From Gammaproteobacteria bacterium (GTDB lineage Bacteria > Pseudomonadota > Gammaproteobacteria > Arenicellales > UBA868), in assembly GCA_022450155.1 (NCBI GenBank), contig JAKUQR010000002.1, positions 1 to 64,000 on the forward strand: DNA of 64,000 bases, written 5' to 3'. Below the pieces are notes generated by a model that worked only from the letters and a program-made list of their open reading frames with translations, was not told the origin of the DNA and ran no database searches. The stretch's first letter is position 1. The number at the start of each line of letters is the position of its first letter. This document shows positions 12,884-41,840 of this stretch, one piece after another. Both the position numbers and the translations under genes were made by a program.

Positions 12884-13513
12884 CTATAGAGCGGCGCTCG
12901 GTCGAGCGCTCACCACGTCATACCATCGCCTGGCGTGGATCGCGTCCTCAGCCAATACCAGTTTTCGCCATGCTGCAAAATCGATCAATACCAGCAGATC
13001 AATATCGGCCACAGTAAAAGCGTCACCCGCCACAAACGGTTTTTCGCCGACCAAGTCATCAACTTCAGCCAGGAAGCGTTCGATCCGCTGTTTTCCCCGT
13101 TCAGCAAGTGCTGGGATCTGGTCATAGTTAATCGGACCAGTCAGAGCACGGCCCTTAAACCCCTGGGCTGAATTTCGTAGGTACTCTGCCATGGCCATAA
13201 AGCCTCCCATCTCAATATGCCACTGCAAATCGGCGACGCGGCCCCGGTCAATTGGGCTCGTACCCATCAGAGGCGGATTGGGATACTCGGCATCAAGATA
13301 GTGCCAGATCGCAGTAGTACTGTTGAGACAAGTTCCATCTTCGAGCTGCAATACCGGCACCGTACCGCATGCATTCAGAGCAACAAATTCCTCCTTGAGG
13401 TGTTCACCTGAGCGAAGATCAACTTCGATGGTCTCAACCTGAATACCTTTTTCAGCAATAAAAATTCTAGCCCGCCTGGGGGATGGCGCAGTCTTGCAGT
13501 CATAAAATCTCAC
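12884..13513 (-). CDS. Glutathione S-transferase family protein
   Basis: This 209-residue two-domain GST has an N-terminal thioredoxin-like domain (1-80) with the candidate active serine in TAPSPRRAR and the cis-proline glutathione-binding GTVPVLQLEDG. An all-helical C-terminal domain with FTVADIDLLVLID follows. The start is GTG at 13513 with a clear GAGGAG ribosome-binding site eight bases upstream. It probably conjugates glutathione to, or reductively modifies, an electrophile. The location between an amidohydrolase and a DMT exporter is compatible with xenobiotic or degradation-intermediate handling. Confidence 0.88.
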   Translation of the reverse strand: MRFYDCKTAPSPRRARIFIAEKGIQVETIEVDLRSGEHLKEEFVALNACGTVPVLQLEDGTCLNSTTAIWHYLDAEYPNPPLMGTSPIDRGRVADLQWHIEMGGFMAMAEYLRNSAQGFKGRALTGPINYDQIPALAERGKQRIERFLAEVDDLVGEKPFVAGDAFTVADIDLLVLIDFAAWRKLVLAEDAIHARRWYDVVSARPSAAL

Positions 13514-13575: not shown

Positions 13576-14976
13576 TCAGCCACAGCCCAAAGCAACACCT
13601 ACTCCACCATGGCGTTTAAGTACGGCCAGCCAATCAGGTATGTGCTTCTTGATTCGGTTAAGAATATTAGGCTCATCCAATCCTAAAATACAGCCACCTT
13701 CCAACACCAGTCGCCCATCTATTACGCTGCAAACGACATCTGATGCACGAGCGTAATAAGCTAAGGATGAGTACTCTGCATAAAATGGCTGCAAGTGTGG
13801 ACGCTGCAAATCAAGCTGTATTAGATCAGCTCTTTTCCCGGGCGCCAAACTGCCGACCTGATCCTCAATACCCATAACTCTTGCGCTACCGATGGTCGCC
13901 AGTTTCATTGCGTCAAGAGAAGTCAGCGCATCATGGAGTCCACTCAGTAATCGAACTGCATTCATCGCATTGCGCATGGCTTCAAACGGATCATTCATCA
14001 TCCAGTCTGTCGCAATCCCAGTAACAATTTGGCGATCTTGAATTCCCTGAAGATCTGGATATACGCCGCGACGTGGATAAATTGTTGGGCAATGTGCATA
14101 ACGCGCCTTAGATTGCTTGATCACATCCAAGTCGGTATCTGAAGCAAATGTCAGGTGTGCCAATACAGAGCGATTCGACAACACATCCAGGTCAGCGAGA
14201 AACTCGGCAGGGCCTTTGTCGTATGTTGACCGGCAGTATTCAACTTCCTGTCTTGACTGAGCCACGTGCGTATGCAACCCAACACCCAGGCGGTTAGCTT
14301 CTGCGTGAGCCTCTACATGGAGCCCGGGAGAACAAGTGTCCGTAGCGTGAGGGCCGATTCGTCCTGTAACGAGTCTCGATTTGGAGGCGGCACATTTCTC
14401 GACGAAATTAACGCCACGGCGCAACCGTTCCTCACCTTCTGTCGCCACCCACTCGTAGTGGTTCGCGTAAAGTTTCTCTAACTTCACATCAAAGACTTTC
14501 AGTGCTATCTGCGCGCGCAATCCCGCCGTCTCAGCCGCCTCGGCGAGGCCTTCAGGCTCGTACCAGATGTCGTTGATCGTCGTAACACCCGACCGGATCA
14601 TATCCAAGACACCCAATAGAGCCAGATCCCGCCACTGCTCAGTAGAAATATGCTTCTCACTCCTGAATGCGACTGAATACAGAGCTTGGCCACCGGCGCC
14701 ATCATCGCTCTGACTCCGGAACAGCGCTGAAGCGGCGTGGCTATGGCAATTAACGAACCCGGGCATTACAGCTTTACCTTGACCTGACAGAGTTTTTTTT
14801 GGCTGCCAGAAACCGCTGCCCTTAGCGGGACCACTGTAGACAATCGTGTTGCCGTTTACAGCAACCTCCCCGTTCACAACAATAGGGGCATCTTCGGTCA
14901 GTGTGTAAAGAACATCCGCGCTGACCAGTAAGTCAACTTGTGTTCCTGGCGGAGGAATTTGTTTGTCATCAGTCAT
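13576..14976 (-). CDS. ATZ/TRZ-type amidohydrolase (deaminase-like)
   Basis: This 466-residue metal-dependent amidohydrolase has the first metal pair in FVNCHSHAASALFR, a third histidine in GLHTHVAQSRQEVE, a fourth in VLAHLTFAS and the metal aspartate in GIATDWMMND. This order matches the TRZ/ATZ, 5'-methylthioadenosine/S-adenosylhomocysteine deaminase and chlorohydrolase branch. N- and C-terminal beta-sandwich strands bracket the barrel, as usual. It would deaminate or dehalogenate a nitrogen heterocycle. The following GST and exporter suit a dissimilatory role. The exact substrate is not predictable. Confidence 0.87.
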   Translation of the reverse strand: MTDDKQIPPPGTQVDLLVSADVLYTLTEDAPIVVNGEVAVNGNTIVYSGPAKGSGFWQPKKTLSGQGKAVMPGFVNCHSHAASALFRSQSDDGAGGQALYSVAFRSEKHISTEQWRDLALLGVLDMIRSGVTTINDIWYEPEGLAEAAETAGLRAQIALKVFDVKLEKLYANHYEWVATEGEERLRRGVNFVEKCAASKSRLVTGRIGPHATDTCSPGLHVEAHAEANRLGVGLHTHVAQSRQEVEYCRSTYDKGPAEFLADLDVLSNRSVLAHLTFASDTDLDVIKQSKARYAHCPTIYPRRGVYPDLQGIQDRQIVTGIATDWMMNDPFEAMRNAMNAVRLLSGLHDALTSLDAMKLATIGSARVMGIEDQVGSLAPGKRADLIQLDLQRPHLQPFYAEYSSLAYYARASDVVCSVIDGRLVLEGGCILGLDEPNILNRIKKHIPDWLAVLKRHGGVGVALGCG

Positions 14977-15104
14977 GCTGGCATTTATAGATAAACACGG
15001 TCTCTCTCAATTGCTAATATATACCGTCGTTGCATGACCAGCTTGGATTGGACATTGCACTACTGTATACGGATGTATTAGCACAGTACCTGAAAATACA
15101 GATT

Positions 15105-15995
15105 GTGAATATACAAATTGATACTCGGACTTTGACGCCATCTGGTTTCGGCGTCGAAGTAAGTGGTGTCGATATTTCCAAGCTTGATGACCAAACAGGT
15201 CAGATACTCACCGATGCCTTTGACGCGCACGGTGGCCTGCTGGTTCTGCGTGATCAGGGGCTCGAAAACCCGGACGATCTATACCAGTTGGCCGCATTGT
15301 TCGGTGAGATCGAACACAATGAAAAATACGACCCGCGCTATCTATTGCCGGATCATCCTGAGATTCTTCGTATCGGCAACACAATCGAAGACGGACAATA
15401 CAGCGCACTGTTTATCCGTGCTGACCCTCCGCCTCTACTCTGGCATTGCGACGACTCCTTTCGCCATCCACAACCCATGGGTTCATGTCTTTATTGCGTG
15501 GAAACCCCCGAGTCAGGTGGGGAAACTGGTTTTGCAGGTATGACCGCAGCCTACGAAGAGTTGAGCGAACAGATCAAATTCAGAATTAATAACTTGGTTG
15601 CTGTTCATTCCTATGATCATCTCAATGAACTGTTACGCCGAAAAAATATACACCGCCCCCCGCTCAGCAAAGCGCTGCGCCAGGAACATCCTCCGGTAAG
15701 AAGACCGCTGGTAGCCCGTCACCCGGTCACCGGAAACAAATCATTGTACCTGCCCTTATGCCATATCGAGTGCATTGAGGGCATGGCTGCCACAGAAGGG
15801 GAGGTTCTACTTGAGGAACTGCAGGCACATGCTGTTCAGGAGCGTTTTACCCATTTCCAAAACTGGAGGCCAGGAGACTTGGTGATATGGGACAACCGCT
15901 GCACGCTACATGCCCCCACACCATTCGATGATCAACTCCATACCCGCCTAATGTATCGTCTGACAATGACCGGGCCTCAGATTGCTACTGTCTGA
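15105..15995 (+). CDS. TauD/TfdA-family Fe(II)/2-oxoglutarate dioxygenase
   Basis: This is a dioxygenase of about 296 residues from the GTG at 15105. The first conserved strand, LTPSGFGVEVSGVDISKL, follows directly, whereas upstream codons to the TTG at 15030 look unconserved. The facial triad is HxD in LLWHCDDSFR and the distal histidine in RCTLHAPTPFD, with the 2-oxoglutarate arginine in TRLMYRLTM. Family members oxidise taurine, 2,4-D and related sulfonates or carboxylates. It is divergent from the amidohydrolase and followed by a 69-residue protein and a reductive-dehalogenase-like protein on the same strand. Confidence 0.85.
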   Translation: MNIQIDTRTLTPSGFGVEVSGVDISKLDDQTGQILTDAFDAHGGLLVLRDQGLENPDDLYQLAALFGEIEHNEKYDPRYLLPDHPEILRIGNTIEDGQYSALFIRADPPPLLWHCDDSFRHPQPMGSCLYCVETPESGGETGFAGMTAAYEELSEQIKFRINNLVAVHSYDHLNELLRRKNIHRPPLSKALRQEHPPVRRPLVARHPVTGNKSLYLPLCHIECIEGMAATEGEVLLEELQAHAVQERFTHFQNWRPGDLVIWDNRCTLHAPTPFDDQLHTRLMYRLTMTGPQIATV

Positions 15996-16063: not shown

Positions 16064-16273
16064 ATGAGCTCATTCGAAGACCAGTTTTATCGTACAGACC
16101 GAGCCGTTTGGCCCCGTATCAAACGGGACCTCTTGCTCGCGATATGGATCGCTAGACTGATCTTGACCTGGTTTACCCAGGGTCGACGTCTACGCAAGGC
16201 GAGCTGCCGCGCATTGCGTGAAGAAAACGTGTTGTACCTGGACGACCTTATAAATTCTGAAGACGATGACTAA
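16064..16273 (+). CDS. Small protein coupled to the RdhA-like gene
   Basis: A 69-residue protein with one hydrophobic stretch (about 23-38, LLLAIWIARLILTWFT) between basic flanks and an acidic C-terminus (NSEDDD). It overlaps the next gene by eight bases, so the two are translationally coupled. No family was recognised. Size and position recall small RdhB-type membrane anchors of reductive dehalogenases, but those normally have two or three helices, so this is only an analogy. Confidence 0.6.
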   Translation: MSSFEDQFYRTDRAVWPRIKRDLLLAIWIARLILTWFTQGRRLRKASCRALREENVLYLDDLINSEDDD

Positions 16274-17231
16274 GCGATTCCCAACACCGGACTACCATTT
16301 CAGTTATCGAATTCCACCTGTTTCAGGCAATACGATCAATGGCCTGGGAGAGACGTCGCCTCGTCGTGCTCGCCAGGTATTCCACGGATCTGGGGCACGA
16401 AAACTGGAGTGGGTTGCTTTGGAAATGTTCTTTGGGCTGACAATGCCTTTGCACATTTTCATTCGAAATGCACTTAACCGCTGGGAACTGCGCAAAGCTG
16501 ACGGTCCACTTGCCCGGAAACGCACACCAGTTCCCGATTCCGCAGAGATGTCCAAGCAAATCAAGTCAATCGCAAAACAGGCGGGTGCCGGTGCTGTTGG
16601 CATCACACCAATGACCGAAGATGCATTGTTCGAAGGGCAGACGGCGGATTACCAGACAGCTATCGTGATTGCGTTGCCCCAGGACTACGAAACCATGAAG
16701 GCGGTCACCACAGTTAAGGCCGCGGCAGAAACCGTCGATACCTACCGGGATGTCTCCCGAATCGTGATGGCGCTGGCTGCACATATCCGAAGTCTTGGCT
16801 GGCGTGCGCGCGCCTATGGGGAGAGCGCCGACCTCCTACACATCCCCCTTGCCATCAATGCTGGTATCGGTCAACTGGGCAAACATGGCTCGGTCATCGG
16901 CACTGAGTTCGGTTCCAATTTCAGACTGGCGAGTGTGCTGACAGATATTCCCCTAGCGATAGACTCAGCGGTCGATATCGGCGTTGATGATCTGTGCCTG
17001 GGCTGTCAACGTTGCACGATCGATTGTCCTGCAGACGCAATCAGTGATCAACGGCAATGGGTCCGCGGCAAAAAGAAATGGTACGTGGACTTTGACCGAT
17101 GTGTGATGTACTTCGTTAAAACACTCGGCTGTGGTATCTGTATAGAAGTCTGTCCATGGAGTCGCCCTGGGCGTGGCCGATCGCTGTCACAAACGCTGCT
17201 CGCAAAACGAGCAAAACGCGATCCGACATGA
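16266..17231 (+). CDS. Reductive dehalogenase-like / QueG-like double 4Fe-4S protein
   Basis: This 321-residue protein has a nitroreductase-like corrinoid-binding region (about 95-235) of the RdhA/QueG superfamily: AKQAGAGAVGITPM, DTYRDVSRIVMALAAHIRSLGW, and AINAGIGQLGKHGSVIGTEF. Two ferredoxin clusters follow: Cys244, 247, 250, 254 and Cys279, 289, 292, 296. No twin-arginine signal is present, so it is probably cytoplasmic. Families with this layout use cobalamin to remove halogen or oxygen from organic substrates. QueG itself is expected to carry a C-terminal HEAT-like domain, absent here. It overlaps the small upstream protein. The N-terminal about 90 residues are not conserved with anything recognised. 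Confidence 0.78.
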   Translation: MTKRFPTPDYHFSYRIPPVSGNTINGLGETSPRRARQVFHGSGARKLEWVALEMFFGLTMPLHIFIRNALNRWELRKADGPLARKRTPVPDSAEMSKQIKSIAKQAGAGAVGITPMTEDALFEGQTADYQTAIVIALPQDYETMKAVTTVKAAAETVDTYRDVSRIVMALAAHIRSLGWRARAYGESADLLHIPLAINAGIGQLGKHGSVIGTEFGSNFRLASVLTDIPLAIDSAVDIGVDDLCLGCQRCTIDCPADAISDQRQWVRGKKKWYVDFDRCVMYFVKTLGCGICIEVCPWSRPGRGRSLSQTLLAKRAKRDPT

Positions 17232-17257: not shown

Positions 17258-19450
17258 TCAACTGCCCATAAATCGGTCAAAAACATTCTTCATCAGTCTT
17301 GAAATATTGTTATCGAAATTGTTGTGAGGCAGGCTACCACAGAAAGTAATTGAACCAGTCGAGAAGACTGCACCACCGGAAGGTGTATCAAAGTAAACCA
17401 TGTCAGCACGGATCAGTTCCTCATTTGGCACTCCCGGCAAGTTAGTGATATGCGTGAGTTGTTCTTCTGGAACCAGGACGAACGTGTCATTGTGATTTTC
17501 TGACGAGGCAACCACTACAGCGTTTTGTGGAGAACCCAAGTAACGATCATAACGGTCGAGCTCAAAACCGGCCGCGCCGCCACCGCTGAAACCAAAATCA
17601 CCAATCAGTTCATCGGATATACCGTCGAACATCCAACTGAATCGCTCATCGTAACTCTCGGGCGTACGACGGTAGTAGGAACCGAAAAAACGACCCTGAG
17701 ACGAGAATCCTACGCCGGCGAGATGTTGCGGAGGCCGACCGTTTCGACGCCACAATCCACCATACTGGCCATCAAAAGCGTTGTAGTACTCACCGGGTTC
17801 CGCAGCCCAAGCTCGTATTCCACCTTCGGCTCTTCGGATTTCGATCAGCGAACTATTCTCGGGATGAATCGCCACACGCCAATAAAAACCGTTCCCACCG
17901 AGATAGGCGAGGTGACCGCCCTGGTCGCGGTACTGCTGTAGTGCATCGAGTGTCCGCGCAGTGTGGTATTCAGGATGAGATCCTGTTGTCACCGCAGCAT
18001 AACCGCTCAGCACAGCCACGCCTTCATCATGCAATTCCTTATCGGTAATCACATCAAAGGAATAGCCTTGATTTTCCAGCCACGCCGTTAGGTGACTATC
18101 AGCCTGAAAATGACGCAGTCCAGAACACGCGTTCGCACCAAATGTCAGATAACCCGGTCTCAGATTGAATAATGGTCGTCGATGACTGGCGTGACAAATA
18201 CCACTTCGATCAGAGTGAAAATTGTAGGTGGAACATCCGTAGTGTGGATACTCAGCCGGATTCCATGGGTAGGCATTCCACGCCTCGTTCCTGTCGAGCC
18301 AAGAAGGTTCGTAGTCAGGTCGAGCATGGTTACCATAGACCGTGTAGGTGAAGGTCGACACCAGGACACATAAACGGGCAGTCCGTTTATCCCGCGGCGG
18401 ACAGACAAACAGTGGAATCGTGTCATGCTGATCTTCCTGCTCGAGTCGAATACCGTAAATCCCGGATCGAAGATCATTAGGCACCACAAACGAAAAATCT
18501 GTTTCCCACTCAAAGTCGTAGATATCATCTTCATGGAAGTGGATCGCCCCATACTGGTGTGGCAAGTGTCGCCAACACATCTCGGTACCATCCCAATTAG
18601 CCCCCGTCATTGCACGAGCGGGAAAATTGATTAGCGTGCCAGTTAACTGGTTGGGACCTGAATCAACAACACGGCAACTGGATATGTCGCGCGAAAAATC
18701 CCAGCATGCAAACACCGGAACACCATCGGTTTGTCCTTCCAGGGTATCCAGATCCAGCGGTCCCACATAAACCGTCGGACTGTCTATCTTGCCGTTGAAG
18801 TGCATCTGTCGCCCAGTCCTTTCAGCCGCCGCAATCATCAGACAGTCCATCGTTTCCAGCTCCAGAGCCGTCGACCCGCTAAATTCGGCGTGCGAAGCCT
18901 CATCGGACTGATTACCGCTACAGCGCAGGGCCAACGAGCCTTCTACCAGATCGACACTTGCCGAAAGACGTACCCAGTAACGGTCAGTAGTCGGACTGTC
19001 CAGCACACACTCACTCCAACTGTCATCGGTCATCCTGACTGCGACCCGTGGCCTGCCAGCACCGTCCAGACCCAAAACAAACGCACACCCAGAATCTGCT
19101 GCACCTGCCGAAAACACCGTCTGTGCCCCTTCCCCAGGCCGGGTCGGCCAGATCATCACGGTTACCGCAAATGCTTCAGGCAACTGACTGTCTGCTGCTA
19201 GAGGCACTTTCAGACAGGATCCGGGTACAAATGGCTGTACACGCGCTGAATAGGCACCCGTTAAACTGCAGTCGATGGCTTCCTCAACCAGCCCCATCCC
19301 TTCAGGATTGGGGTCAGCACAAACGGTACGCACCAGACGGGCTGTGTAATTGCCGTCTAGATAACTGCTGACCTTAACCTCGACGACCTCTCCCGGCCGG
19401 GCAGACAGCCGGTCAGCATAACCGAGCAGTGGGGGATGGTTATGGTTCAT
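17258..19450 (-). CDS. N,N-dimethylformamidase large-subunit-like amidohydrolase
   Basis: This 730-residue protein resembles the catalytic beta subunit of N,N-dimethylformamidase, an iron enzyme splitting formamides into an amine and formate. An N-terminal beta-rich region opens with GYADRLSARPGEVVEVKVSS. A LamG-like insert lies about 120-240, and the conserved body has YGCSTYNFHSDRSG, YLTFGANACSGLRHF, YLGGNGFYWRVAIH and GGAAGFELDRYD. I could not confirm the iron ligands by eye. It overlaps the preceding TfdA-type gene by four bases (ATGA). No separate small subunit is visible. Closely related proteins may act on other amides. Confidence 0.8.
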   Translation of the reverse strand: MNHNHPPLLGYADRLSARPGEVVEVKVSSYLDGNYTARLVRTVCADPNPEGMGLVEEAIDCSLTGAYSARVQPFVPGSCLKVPLAADSQLPEAFAVTVMIWPTRPGEGAQTVFSAGAADSGCAFVLGLDGAGRPRVAVRMTDDSWSECVLDSPTTDRYWVRLSASVDLVEGSLALRCSGNQSDEASHAEFSGSTALELETMDCLMIAAAERTGRQMHFNGKIDSPTVYVGPLDLDTLEGQTDGVPVFACWDFSRDISSCRVVDSGPNQLTGTLINFPARAMTGANWDGTEMCWRHLPHQYGAIHFHEDDIYDFEWETDFSFVVPNDLRSGIYGIRLEQEDQHDTIPLFVCPPRDKRTARLCVLVSTFTYTVYGNHARPDYEPSWLDRNEAWNAYPWNPAEYPHYGCSTYNFHSDRSGICHASHRRPLFNLRPGYLTFGANACSGLRHFQADSHLTAWLENQGYSFDVITDKELHDEGVAVLSGYAAVTTGSHPEYHTARTLDALQQYRDQGGHLAYLGGNGFYWRVAIHPENSSLIEIRRAEGGIRAWAAEPGEYYNAFDGQYGGLWRRNGRPPQHLAGVGFSSQGRFFGSYYRRTPESYDERFSWMFDGISDELIGDFGFSGGGAAGFELDRYDRYLGSPQNAVVVASSENHNDTFVLVPEEQLTHITNLPGVPNEELIRADMVYFDTPSGGAVFSTGSITFCGSLPHNNFDNNISRLMKNVFDRFMGS

Positions 19451-20337
19451 GTGTGGGCGACCTGTGGTGTGGTTGGACCATCACTGGAGATGGTGGTCCG
19501 GCGTACGTCTCTGATATCCTCAGTTTCATCGAAACGCCGAACGCGATGCATCGTCTGCCGATTGTCCCACATGACGAGGTCGTGTAATCGCCAGTGGTGT
19601 ACATAGACAAACTGCGGCTGGGTCGCACATTCGATCAGATCGCGCAGAAAGATACGGGCTTCAGCCATCGGCCAACCCACGATGGTTCCGGCATGAGACG
19701 CCAGAAAGAGCGATCTGCGCATCGTCACAGGATGAGTTCTCACCAACACCTGGCGAACGGGCGCGAAGGTTTGTTGTTCTTCTTCTGTGAAGTCGGTAAA
19801 CCCAAGCTGACCCCGGGAATACATCAGCGAGTGTTCACATATCAACCCCTCAACTTCCGCCTTTATCTTGTCATCCAGAGCGTCATAGGCCGCTCGCATG
19901 TCTGCATATTCGGTATTTGGACCATCGGCCGGAATAGAGCGGGCGGACAATAGTGAATACTTCGCCGGAATGGCACGAAACGAACTGTCTGAATGCCACA
20001 AACGGTTACCTAAATTAAATAATCTCCGTCGGTCGTCCCTGGCATAGATATTCTGGTTTTGATCCAGATTGGAGACATCCGCAATATCGGTACCGAGCCG
20101 GCGCTGATCGAGTCGCGTGATATTGCCACCAATTGAAGATTCAATCGGTCCGAGCGCTCGACTGAACGCAAGCTGCTCTTCGTCACTGATATCCTGACCA
20201 CGAAACACCAAGACTGCGTATTCGTCCATACCGGAATCGATCGCAGCCACTGTCTCCGGACTCAAAGGTCGACGGAGATCCACTCCAGACACCTCCCCCG
20301 CAAAACATCTACCGATCGGAACAATCGAAATACTCAT
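19447..20337 (-). CDS. TfdA/TauD-family dioxygenase coupled to the formamidase
   Basis: This 296-residue Fe(II)/2-oxoglutarate dioxygenase has HxD in RLWHSDSSFR, the TfdA-type helix EYADMRAAYDAL, the distal histidine in RQTMHRVRRFD and the closing arginine in DVRRTTIS. VFRGQDISDEEQLAFSRALG is the classic N-terminal motif. TfdA enzymes release glyoxylate or an aldehyde from ether, sulfonate or amine substrates. Its stop overlaps the formamidase start by four bases, so the two proteins are made together. An oxidative N- or O-dealkylation producing an amide for the second enzyme is an inference. It is divergent from an MFS transporter. Confidence 0.87.
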   Translation of the reverse strand: MSISIVPIGRCFAGEVSGVDLRRPLSPETVAAIDSGMDEYAVLVFRGQDISDEEQLAFSRALGPIESSIGGNITRLDQRRLGTDIADVSNLDQNQNIYARDDRRRLFNLGNRLWHSDSSFRAIPAKYSLLSARSIPADGPNTEYADMRAAYDALDDKIKAEVEGLICEHSLMYSRGQLGFTDFTEEEQQTFAPVRQVLVRTHPVTMRRSLFLASHAGTIVGWPMAEARIFLRDLIECATQPQFVYVHHWRLHDLVMWDNRQTMHRVRRFDETEDIRDVRRTTISSDGPTTPQVAHT

Positions 20338-40622: not shown

Positions 40623-41840
40623 CTAAGGACGGGTAACCGACCTGATTCTCTTCCACCAGTCCGTACTTTGTTTACGCTTTCCCCGCCTGCTGAGTTGTTC
40701 CAGTTTTATCAGCAGTCCCCTGGCCGGCGTCCTGGCGAACCAACGCCATACTCGATTCCACAGGAATCCGAAATCCCTGTTCCAGGGACAGACCCGTAGG
40801 CAAATCGCGCAGTCACTGCTCAAATCAGCCCAGAAACTGAAACACTTTTCAGCGTCTGAGGTCCACTTGATCACACCTTGTATTGCTGATCTGTTGGGCT
40901 GTACGTCCGACGGTGGCCCGCTGGGCAATGCTTTAACCGGACAGGCATCGACACAACGGGTACAAACATCACAGAACCGGCGTACTCCGAGCAACCGGGG
41001 TTGGTCGTGTACCAACGGCAGGTCAGTCAGCACTTTTGAGAATCTGACTCTGGGACCGTACTCCGGCGTGATCACCAGCTGGTTACGGGCATACTCACCG
41101 AGACCCGCCTGGAGTGCATAGGGGATCACCAATGCCGAGTCATTCATGGAACCGACCGCTTGCCAGCCCAGATTACGAATATACTGTGACAAGCGAATTA
41201 CCGTAGCTGCCTCTTCAGAATAGGCATTTCCCGTCGCTGCACCTGCGACTGCCGACGGGTAGGTGTCTACCATAGCCCTATCCATTTCGTGCCCCAATAC
41301 CACGACTGATGTCAGACCTTCAGGTAAACCGGTATCGTGTTCTTCGAATGTGGTCGAGCTTACCCGGTTGGCATACGTCCAGCGTGGGTCATACGGGGCT
41401 ATGCCAACGATCCCCGCGCCAAACAGCTTCGCGATATGCTTGATCTCAGCCGTCATAGCGTCACGATCCTCGACCTCGACCCGCTCTGCTGCGACCTGCG
41501 CAGTGGGCCGCAGAGGCGCGTTGAAACCTTCCCGAATACCCTGCGACTCTCCACGACTGGAAAATTCGTCTGAAACCGCCCAGGCAGCATTGCGCAGTGC
41601 AAAATCTTTCTGAGTAAACCCACCACCACGTCGGAAACTGGGTGTCTTTCGGTAAGAATCAAAAAACGCCATCATCTCCGGACGACGAATTTCGTCATCC
41701 CAGAAAGCCCGATTGAACATGTCATTGCGTTGACTGAAACGGGCAAACCTGTCGGTCGTCTGAATGCCCGCCGCAGCATCGCGTCGTTCCCTATCGGCGG
41801 CAGTCACCGGCGAGGTGTTAACGTTTGTTCTGTGATTCAC
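40623..41840 (-). CDS. Second reductive dehalogenase-like double 4Fe-4S protein
   Basis: This 405-residue protein shares the RdhA layout more clearly than the copy at 16.3 kb. A corrinoid-domain start GAGIVGIAPYDPRW is followed by Tyr207 in NAYSEEAATVIRLSQYIR, at the place where a catalytic tyrosine would be expected. LGEYARNQLVITPEYGPRVR and TDLPLVHDQPRLLGV precede two clusters: Cys290, 293, 296, 300 and Cys333, 344, 347, 351. The first about 100 residues are arginine-rich and polar with no twin-arginine signal, so a cytoplasmic location is likely. Length is close to respiratory RdhA without its signal. The tail is basic and tryptophan-rich (WNRVWRWFAR). No RdhB-like gene is next to it. Confidence 0.82.
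   Translation of the reverse strand: MNHRTNVNTSPVTAADRERRDAAAGIQTTDRFARFSQRNDMFNRAFWDDEIRRPEMMAFFDSYRKTPSFRRGGGFTQKDFALRNAAWAVSDEFSSRGESQGIREGFNAPLRPTAQVAAERVEVEDRDAMTAEIKHIAKLFGAGIVGIAPYDPRWTYANRVSSTTFEEHDTGLPEGLTSVVVLGHEMDRAMVDTYPSAVAGAATGNAYSEEAATVIRLSQYIRNLGWQAVGSMNDSALVIPYALQAGLGEYARNQLVITPEYGPRVRFSKVLTDLPLVHDQPRLLGVRRFCDVCTRCVDACPVKALPSGPPSDVQPNRSAIQGVIKWTSDAEKCFSFWADLSSDCAICLRVCPWNRDFGFLWNRVWRWFARTPARGLLIKLEQLSRRGKRKQSTDWWKRIRSVTRP

Follow-up and report, generated by a model that had tools for sequence, protein, structure and literature searches.

The window, a 64,000-nucleotide stretch of a gammaproteobacterial MAG, carries two overlapping genes on its forward strand, one for a 69-aa helical protein and the other for a 321-aa protein related to reductive dehalogenases (RDases) (Table 1). 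Both open reading frames lie where the initial annotation had placed them, and they share 8 bp (ATGACTAA). A gap of 68 bp separates the small gene from the TauD/TfdA-family gene upstream, the true start of which may be later than the one listed. The amidohydrolase, glutathione S-transferase (GST), dimethylformamidase-like, and second TauD genes are found again in the same order in G032, another genome of the order. Annotation of the neighborhood gave no recognizable haloaromatic gene in the operon, no reductase or ferredoxin gene adjacent to the pair, and no reductase fused to the enzyme.

Table 1. Genes and motifs of the focal locus and RDase-like paralogs in the same genome
Feature	Location	Strand	Basis or remark
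RDase-like enzyme gene, 321 aa	16266..17231	+	ORF, profile models, alignment
Small helical protein gene, 69 aa	16064..16273	+	ORF, orthologs, dN/dS
First 4Fe-4S motif, C-x2-C-x2-C-x3-CP, residues 244-255	16995..17030	+	sequence, alignment
Second 4Fe-4S motif, residues 279-297	17100..17156	+	C279 + C-x2-C-x3-CP
TauD/TfdA-family 2-oxoglutarate dioxygenase gene, directly upstream	15030..15995	+	profile match, synteny
N,N-dimethylformamidase beta-subunit-like C-terminal domain gene, convergent	17258..19450	-	syntenic context, outside pair
Amidohydrolase gene	13576-14976	-	near pair
Glutathione S-transferase gene	12884-13513	-	near pair
Second TauD dioxygenase gene	19447-20337	-	near pair
405-aa RdhA-like paralog	window 40623-41840	-	TIGR02486 162.4 bits, above cut-off
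326-aa paralog (par2)	own-genome contig C24, L096 6948-7928		36% identity
737-aa NpRdhA-type protein	own-genome contig C22		
True QueG, separate gene	own-genome contig C7		

Both 4Fe-4S motifs of the enzyme are complete. C244, C247, C250, and C254 make up the first, and C289, C292, and C296, with C279 ahead of them, the second; in each, the last Cys is followed by a Pro. All eight Cys are kept in 53 of 53 aligned homologs, both motifs agree with the RDase definitions FeS1 (CxxCxxCxxxCP) and FeS2 (CxxCxxxCP) given in the accessible text of PMC6797604, and the Pfam models Fer4_7 and Fer4_16 score above their cut-offs. The NCBIfam RDH model TIGR02486 matched the enzyme with 122.2 bits (E = 4e-35), under its curated cut-off of 160.35 bits, and the QueG model TIGR00276 with 63 bits (cut-off, 200). 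When a profile of five orthologs was searched against solved structures, NpRdhA was matched best (1.6e-40), followed by PceA (5.1e-33 and 9.2e-29) and then QueG (1.6e-10). These results bear out the initial annotation, which had described a double 4Fe-4S protein with an RdhA/QueG-type corrinoid region. Foldseek placed PceA (7.5e-11) and NpRdhA (1.2e-9) well ahead of QueG (2.2e-4), but the AlphaFold model of the enzyme on which this ranking depends was poor (pLDDT 51.6, from a shallow five-row alignment) and carries little weight.

The enzyme consists of a single domain, with no duplication of the corrinoid domain, and its chain stops 24 residues past the last cluster Pro, without the C-terminal part of QueG. 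No Tat-like motif was found in residues 1–45 with a simple regular expression, an insensitive one that recovers one of three respiratory proteins. The initial annotation had noted the lack of a Tat signal and, apparently, of a QueG C-terminal domain, and these points stand. N-terminal transmembrane (TM) helices were not seen either: the best 19-residue Kyte-Doolittle value in residues 1–110 was 1.31, with 0.73–0.85 in the orthologs.

Y160 aligns exactly with Y246 of SmPceA and Y426 of NpRdhA, R220 aligns with PceA R305 and NpRdhA K488, and F283 aligns with NpRdhA R552; the roles of these catalytic residues follow the accessible text of PMC10624902 and PMC7565698. The enzyme thus keeps the Tyr of NpRdhA but has Arg for its Lys and Phe for its Arg, and because the phenol-binding pair K488/R552 is not kept, the substrate class of NpRdhA is not transferable. 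The catalytic Tyr column is Tyr in QueG as well, so R220 alone discriminates; every aligned short-type, par2, 400-aa-type, and respiratory homolog has Arg in its column, the NpRdhA type has Lys, and QueG has Phe (six of six rows). K206, within GKHG, is common to the enzyme and QueG, and the respiratory, NpRdhA-type, 400-aa-type, and par2 proteins have Arg there. The Asp of the VDSGP motif in the genome's own QueG, which we take to be the equivalent of Asp134 in Bacillus subtilis QueG, was aligned with Y184 of the enzyme. Asp134 is the catalytic Asp according to the title of PDB: 5T8Y.

Core-domain trees were built from 53, 46, and 51 rows. A fragment (L098) and a duplicate row (G050) were excluded from all of them, Dehalococcoides RdhA was left out of the 46- and 51-row trees because of its long branch, QueG was left out of the 46-row tree, and L010 was left out of the 51-row tree. 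The trees separated QueG, the NpRdhA/BhbA type, a type of about 400 aa, respiratory RdhA, the 326-aa paralog type (par2), and 13 short proteins (313–400 aa) from other Proteobacteria, here called the short group. A fully supported branch split off the six QueG rows, with the focal rows outside (53- and 51-row trees), and the 12 NpRdhA/BhbA-type rows formed their own group (100/100, 53-row tree), again with the focal enzyme outside. The focal orthologs joined the short group with moderate support (90/85 with 53 rows, 76 with 51 rows), and in the 46-row tree without QueG, this join took in par2 (87/88). AU tests on the 51-row tree did not reject alternative joins (p = 0.069–0.254), among them those of the focal proteins to QueG (0.196), to the NpRdhA type (0.149), and to respiratory RdhA plus the 400-aa type (0.069). 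The deep branching order is thus tentative, but the focal proteins lie inside none of the named groups.

Residues 20–29 of the enzyme read SGNTINGLGE. The corresponding pattern, GNxx[NS][GR][LV][GD] near the N terminus, occurs in 13 of 13 short proteins, four of five focal orthologs, and none of 35 other homologs (par2, 2; 400-aa type, 12; NpRdhA type, 12; respiratory, 3; QueG, 6), although it was written after the short proteins had been viewed, which makes the count a description rather than a blind test. The fifth focal ortholog has one unread residue within the signature.

Full-length orthologs of the enzyme (E < 1e-180) were detected in 5 of 109 genomes of the order (G000, G003, G005, G032, and G002); at the same threshold, samples of 369 genomes from the class and 398 from the phylum yielded the own genome only. 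A scan of genome contigs returned four near relatives (three MAGs) and one ferredoxin-like match. The small-protein profile, made from the orthologs, found the same five genomes at E < 1e-30 and none of the other 104 (next best, 9.7e-4). Its matches lie at six places because G005 has two contigs (C79 and C114), and the second copy may be assembly redundancy. The small gene is directly upstream of the enzyme gene in all five ortholog-bearing genomes, and the overlap is 8 bp (ATGACTAA or GTGGCTAA), or 4 bp (GTGA) in G002. Conservation of the small gene beside the enzyme gene, on which the initial annotation had hinged the pairing, is therefore confirmed, though narrowly, within one bacterial family in the data searched. 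Within the genus, as well as in G032, the TauD/TfdA gene adjoins the pair on one side and the dimethylformamidase-like gene follows on the other. The TauD/TfdA gene is absent from the G002 locus (56% identity), where the pair persists next to an ABC transporter and a LysM protein; its retention amid different neighbors is the strongest evidence that both genes belong together. Beyond the ortholog loci, a search of eight genomes with other RDH-like genes gave no credible match to the small protein, and a match in G228 (E = 6.8e-4), to an unrelated 244-aa ORF, was taken as chance.

The 69-aa ORF is a real, conserved gene under purifying selection. Comparison of the window copy with L009, L041, and L011 gave dN/dS ratios of 0.26, 0.18, and 0.32, respectively, and synonymous sites were saturated against L012; two of the other six pairs were also saturated, and the rest gave 0.24, 0.26, 0.31, and 0.72, the last for L011 versus L012. 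A chance ORF is ruled out by these ratios, the codon-position pattern, and the exclusive co-occurrence with the enzyme. M1, E5, W16, R18, R21, A30, I33, G40, R44, A46, and D60 are invariant in the five sequences. No Cys or His is conserved in the ortholog alignment, so a role as a redox carrier is unlikely. AlphaFold predicted one long helix (residues 3–66, pLDDT 72). The 19-residue Kyte-Doolittle maximum is 1.29 for the window protein, 1.13, 1.46, and 1.59 for three orthologs, and 1.86 for G002, where the usual transmembrane level is 1.6; three RdhB proteins reached 2.48–2.65. Of the small single-helix membrane protein first described, the helix holds and the membrane nature is marginally supported. 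The hydrophobic stretch is so weak that a transmembrane helix is no more than a possibility; the protein could cross the membrane, sit on its surface, or associate with the enzyme in solution.

The host MAG (3.2 Mb in 77 contigs, 95.5% complete) has marine gammaproteobacterial MAGs as its relatives and contains five homologs including the focal gene, namely four RDase-like genes of four types and QueG. The par2 type (also L095 5936–6985, G032) lacks SGNxxNGLG, and its second cluster ends in VCA or VCT, not VCP. The 405-aa paralog, in which no Tat motif was found, groups with proteins of about 400 aa from other genomes beside the respiratory branch. Two cobalamin riboswitches are present in the genome, and CobS was not found in the MAG, so the corrinoid is probably imported. 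No heme-copper oxidase was detected in the MAG, but 26 of 33 genomes of the family have one, including the three other congeners; the absence therefore looks like a gap rather than the mark of an anaerobe.

The best hint of catabolic dehalogenation comes from one relative in the short group, that of G848. This genome carries five tandem short RDH genes (L085 5455–11546), flanked on one side by a TonB receptor, a reductase, and a catechol 2,3-dioxygenase (378 bits; NCBIfam cut-off 320) and on the other by an AraC regulator, a Rieske-domain protein, an intradiol ring-cleavage dioxygenase, a thiolase, and an Fe-ADH. The best model for the intradiol enzyme was chlorocatechol 1,2-dioxygenase, under its cut-off. 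Over 304 columns, the stand-alone reductase shares 35% identity with the C-terminal reductase part of the Comamonas 7D-2 RDase (BhbA), so that what is a fused domain in BhbA is a separate protein in G848. From its predicted gene content, the array is likely to be a haloaromatic degradation island. The G017 copy adjoins Rieske ring-hydroxylating oxygenase subunits and a 4HBT-like thioesterase, and the copies in G446, G351, G228, and G529 have less telling neighbors.

Among known enzymes, NpRdhA, BhbA, and JtRdhA (PDB: 4RAS and 6ZXU), as described in the accessible text of PMC10463259 and PMC7565698, resemble the focal enzyme in the lack of a Tat signal, the cytoplasmic location predicted for it, and a catabolic context. 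Two 4Fe-4S clusters and the catalytic Tyr are also common to them, and NpRdhA is the best PDB match. However, in NpRdhA/BhbA-type proteins (663–1105 aa; 12 examined) the corrinoid domain has a vestigial duplicate, and a PDOR reductase is often fused as well; the focal enzyme has neither and falls in a different tree group. We know of no small partner protein for NpRdhA, BhbA, or JtRdhA. The PceA-type Tyr and Arg link the enzyme to the respiratory RdhA-RdhB systems (PceAB and CprBA), and Sulfurospirillum RdhB, with 74 aa and a 4-bp overlap with the enzyme gene, is likewise small and overlapping. In contrast to respiratory RdhAB, no Tat motif was seen in the focal enzyme, and its partner is encoded upstream, with a single, weakly hydrophobic stretch in place of the three TM helices of the RdhB type and without a conserved EXE motif. 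QueG belongs to the same corrinoid/2x4Fe-4S core family, but the focal enzyme is set apart from QueG by the missing C-terminal part, Arg for Phe at position 220, and a position outside the QueG group.

Transmembrane "hybrid" RDases (Atashgahi 2019, PMC6797604) are, like the focal enzyme, without Tat or RdhB in the accessible text, which proposes a membrane link for them and predicts a cytoplasmic catalytic part for some. Mostly they have three N-terminal TM helices within the chain (359–542 aa; Table 1 of PMC6797604), whereas the focal helix is a separate protein. A 2023 scheme sorted RDases into four domain layouts, respiratory, transmembrane, and catabolic with or without a reductase, and assigned a vestigial second corrinoid domain to the catabolic enzymes (PMC10463259, accessible text). 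Judged by its predicted domains, the focal layout matches none of these four, nor the TM-hybrid type, and the pair represents a layout new to the RDase superfamily. No description of an RDase that has one domain, no Tat signal, and a small partner encoded upstream was found in the open-licence PMC literature, mostly at the level of abstracts.

The interpretation that we favor, with a little more confidence than doubt, is that of a minimal cytoplasmic reductive dehalogenase with a catabolic function, encoded together with a small tether or assembly partner. The enzyme would be a cytoplasmic, nonduplicated protein that depends on a corrinoid and two [4Fe-4S] clusters and serves catabolism, not respiration. 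Because no reductase is fused to it and none is adjacent, its electrons are proposed to come from a separate reductase or ferredoxin; they would pass through the two clusters to reduce the cobalt, with Y160 as proton donor and R220 as helper. The two overlapping genes may be translationally coupled, and the 69-aa partner would most likely tether the enzyme to the inner membrane face or aid its assembly.

For the partner alone, a dedicated chaperone, a cofactor-insertion partner, or a mere translational coupler, rather than an anchor, is a serious contender that falls somewhat short of our preference, and it is compatible with the same explanation of the enzyme. Hydrophobicity below the transmembrane level in four of five orthologs, positive charge on both flanks, and a single helix with no tertiary fold are consistent with such a role. 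However, the hydrophobic stretch is retained in all five orthologs despite residue changes, and a pure coupler would have no need for conserved W16, R18, R21, A30, G40, R44, and A46.

For the enzyme, we regard it as unlikely that this is a corrinoid/FeS reductase of the RdhA fold with a non-halogenated substrate, acting, for example, by QueG-like removal of oxygen from an epoxide in a TauD-containing catabolic operon. The QueG-like K206, the QueG join left possible by the AU test, and the nearby TauD, dimethylformamidase-like, amidohydrolase, and GST genes, with no haloaromatic gene, would suit that activity, but R220 is as in PceA-like dehalogenases, RdhA is far ahead of QueG in sequence scores, and the short relatives in G848 and G017 lie within aromatic-degradation clusters. 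A more far-reaching version, in which an RDase held at the cytoplasmic membrane face by its single-helix partner could draw on the quinol pool for electrons with no need for Tat export, and in which aerobic marine bacteria would have evolved their own counterpart of RdhAB independently, is improbable in our estimate. Finally, a divergent QueG (epoxyqueuosine reductase) paralog shares the cluster motifs, would explain the match to the QueG model, and is not rejected by the AU test, but it is highly improbable and was dismissed because the score is far under the cut-off, the genome has a separate QueG, the QueG rows form their own fully supported group, and the enzyme has no C-terminal extension and carries R220 where QueG has Phe. 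The initial view that this is neither a classical respiratory RdhA nor a QueG is thus upheld by the tree placement and the separate QueG, together with the lack of a Tat motif and of a three-helix RdhB, and the enzyme is not of the catabolic NpRdhA/BhbA type either.

The favored interpretation, a minimal cytoplasmic dehalogenase with a small partner, bears on a wider set of proteins, since single-domain Tat-less proteins of about 320–400 aa occur in gamma- and other Proteobacteria, outside the scheme set out in the accessible text of PMC10463259. The coupled small protein raises the question of whether a one-helix partner places or matures such an enzyme. If the interpretation is true, these proteins would be very small RDases, free of the vestigial domain, for B12-dependent biocatalysis, and they would point to a route of halogen removal by aerobic marine bacteria.
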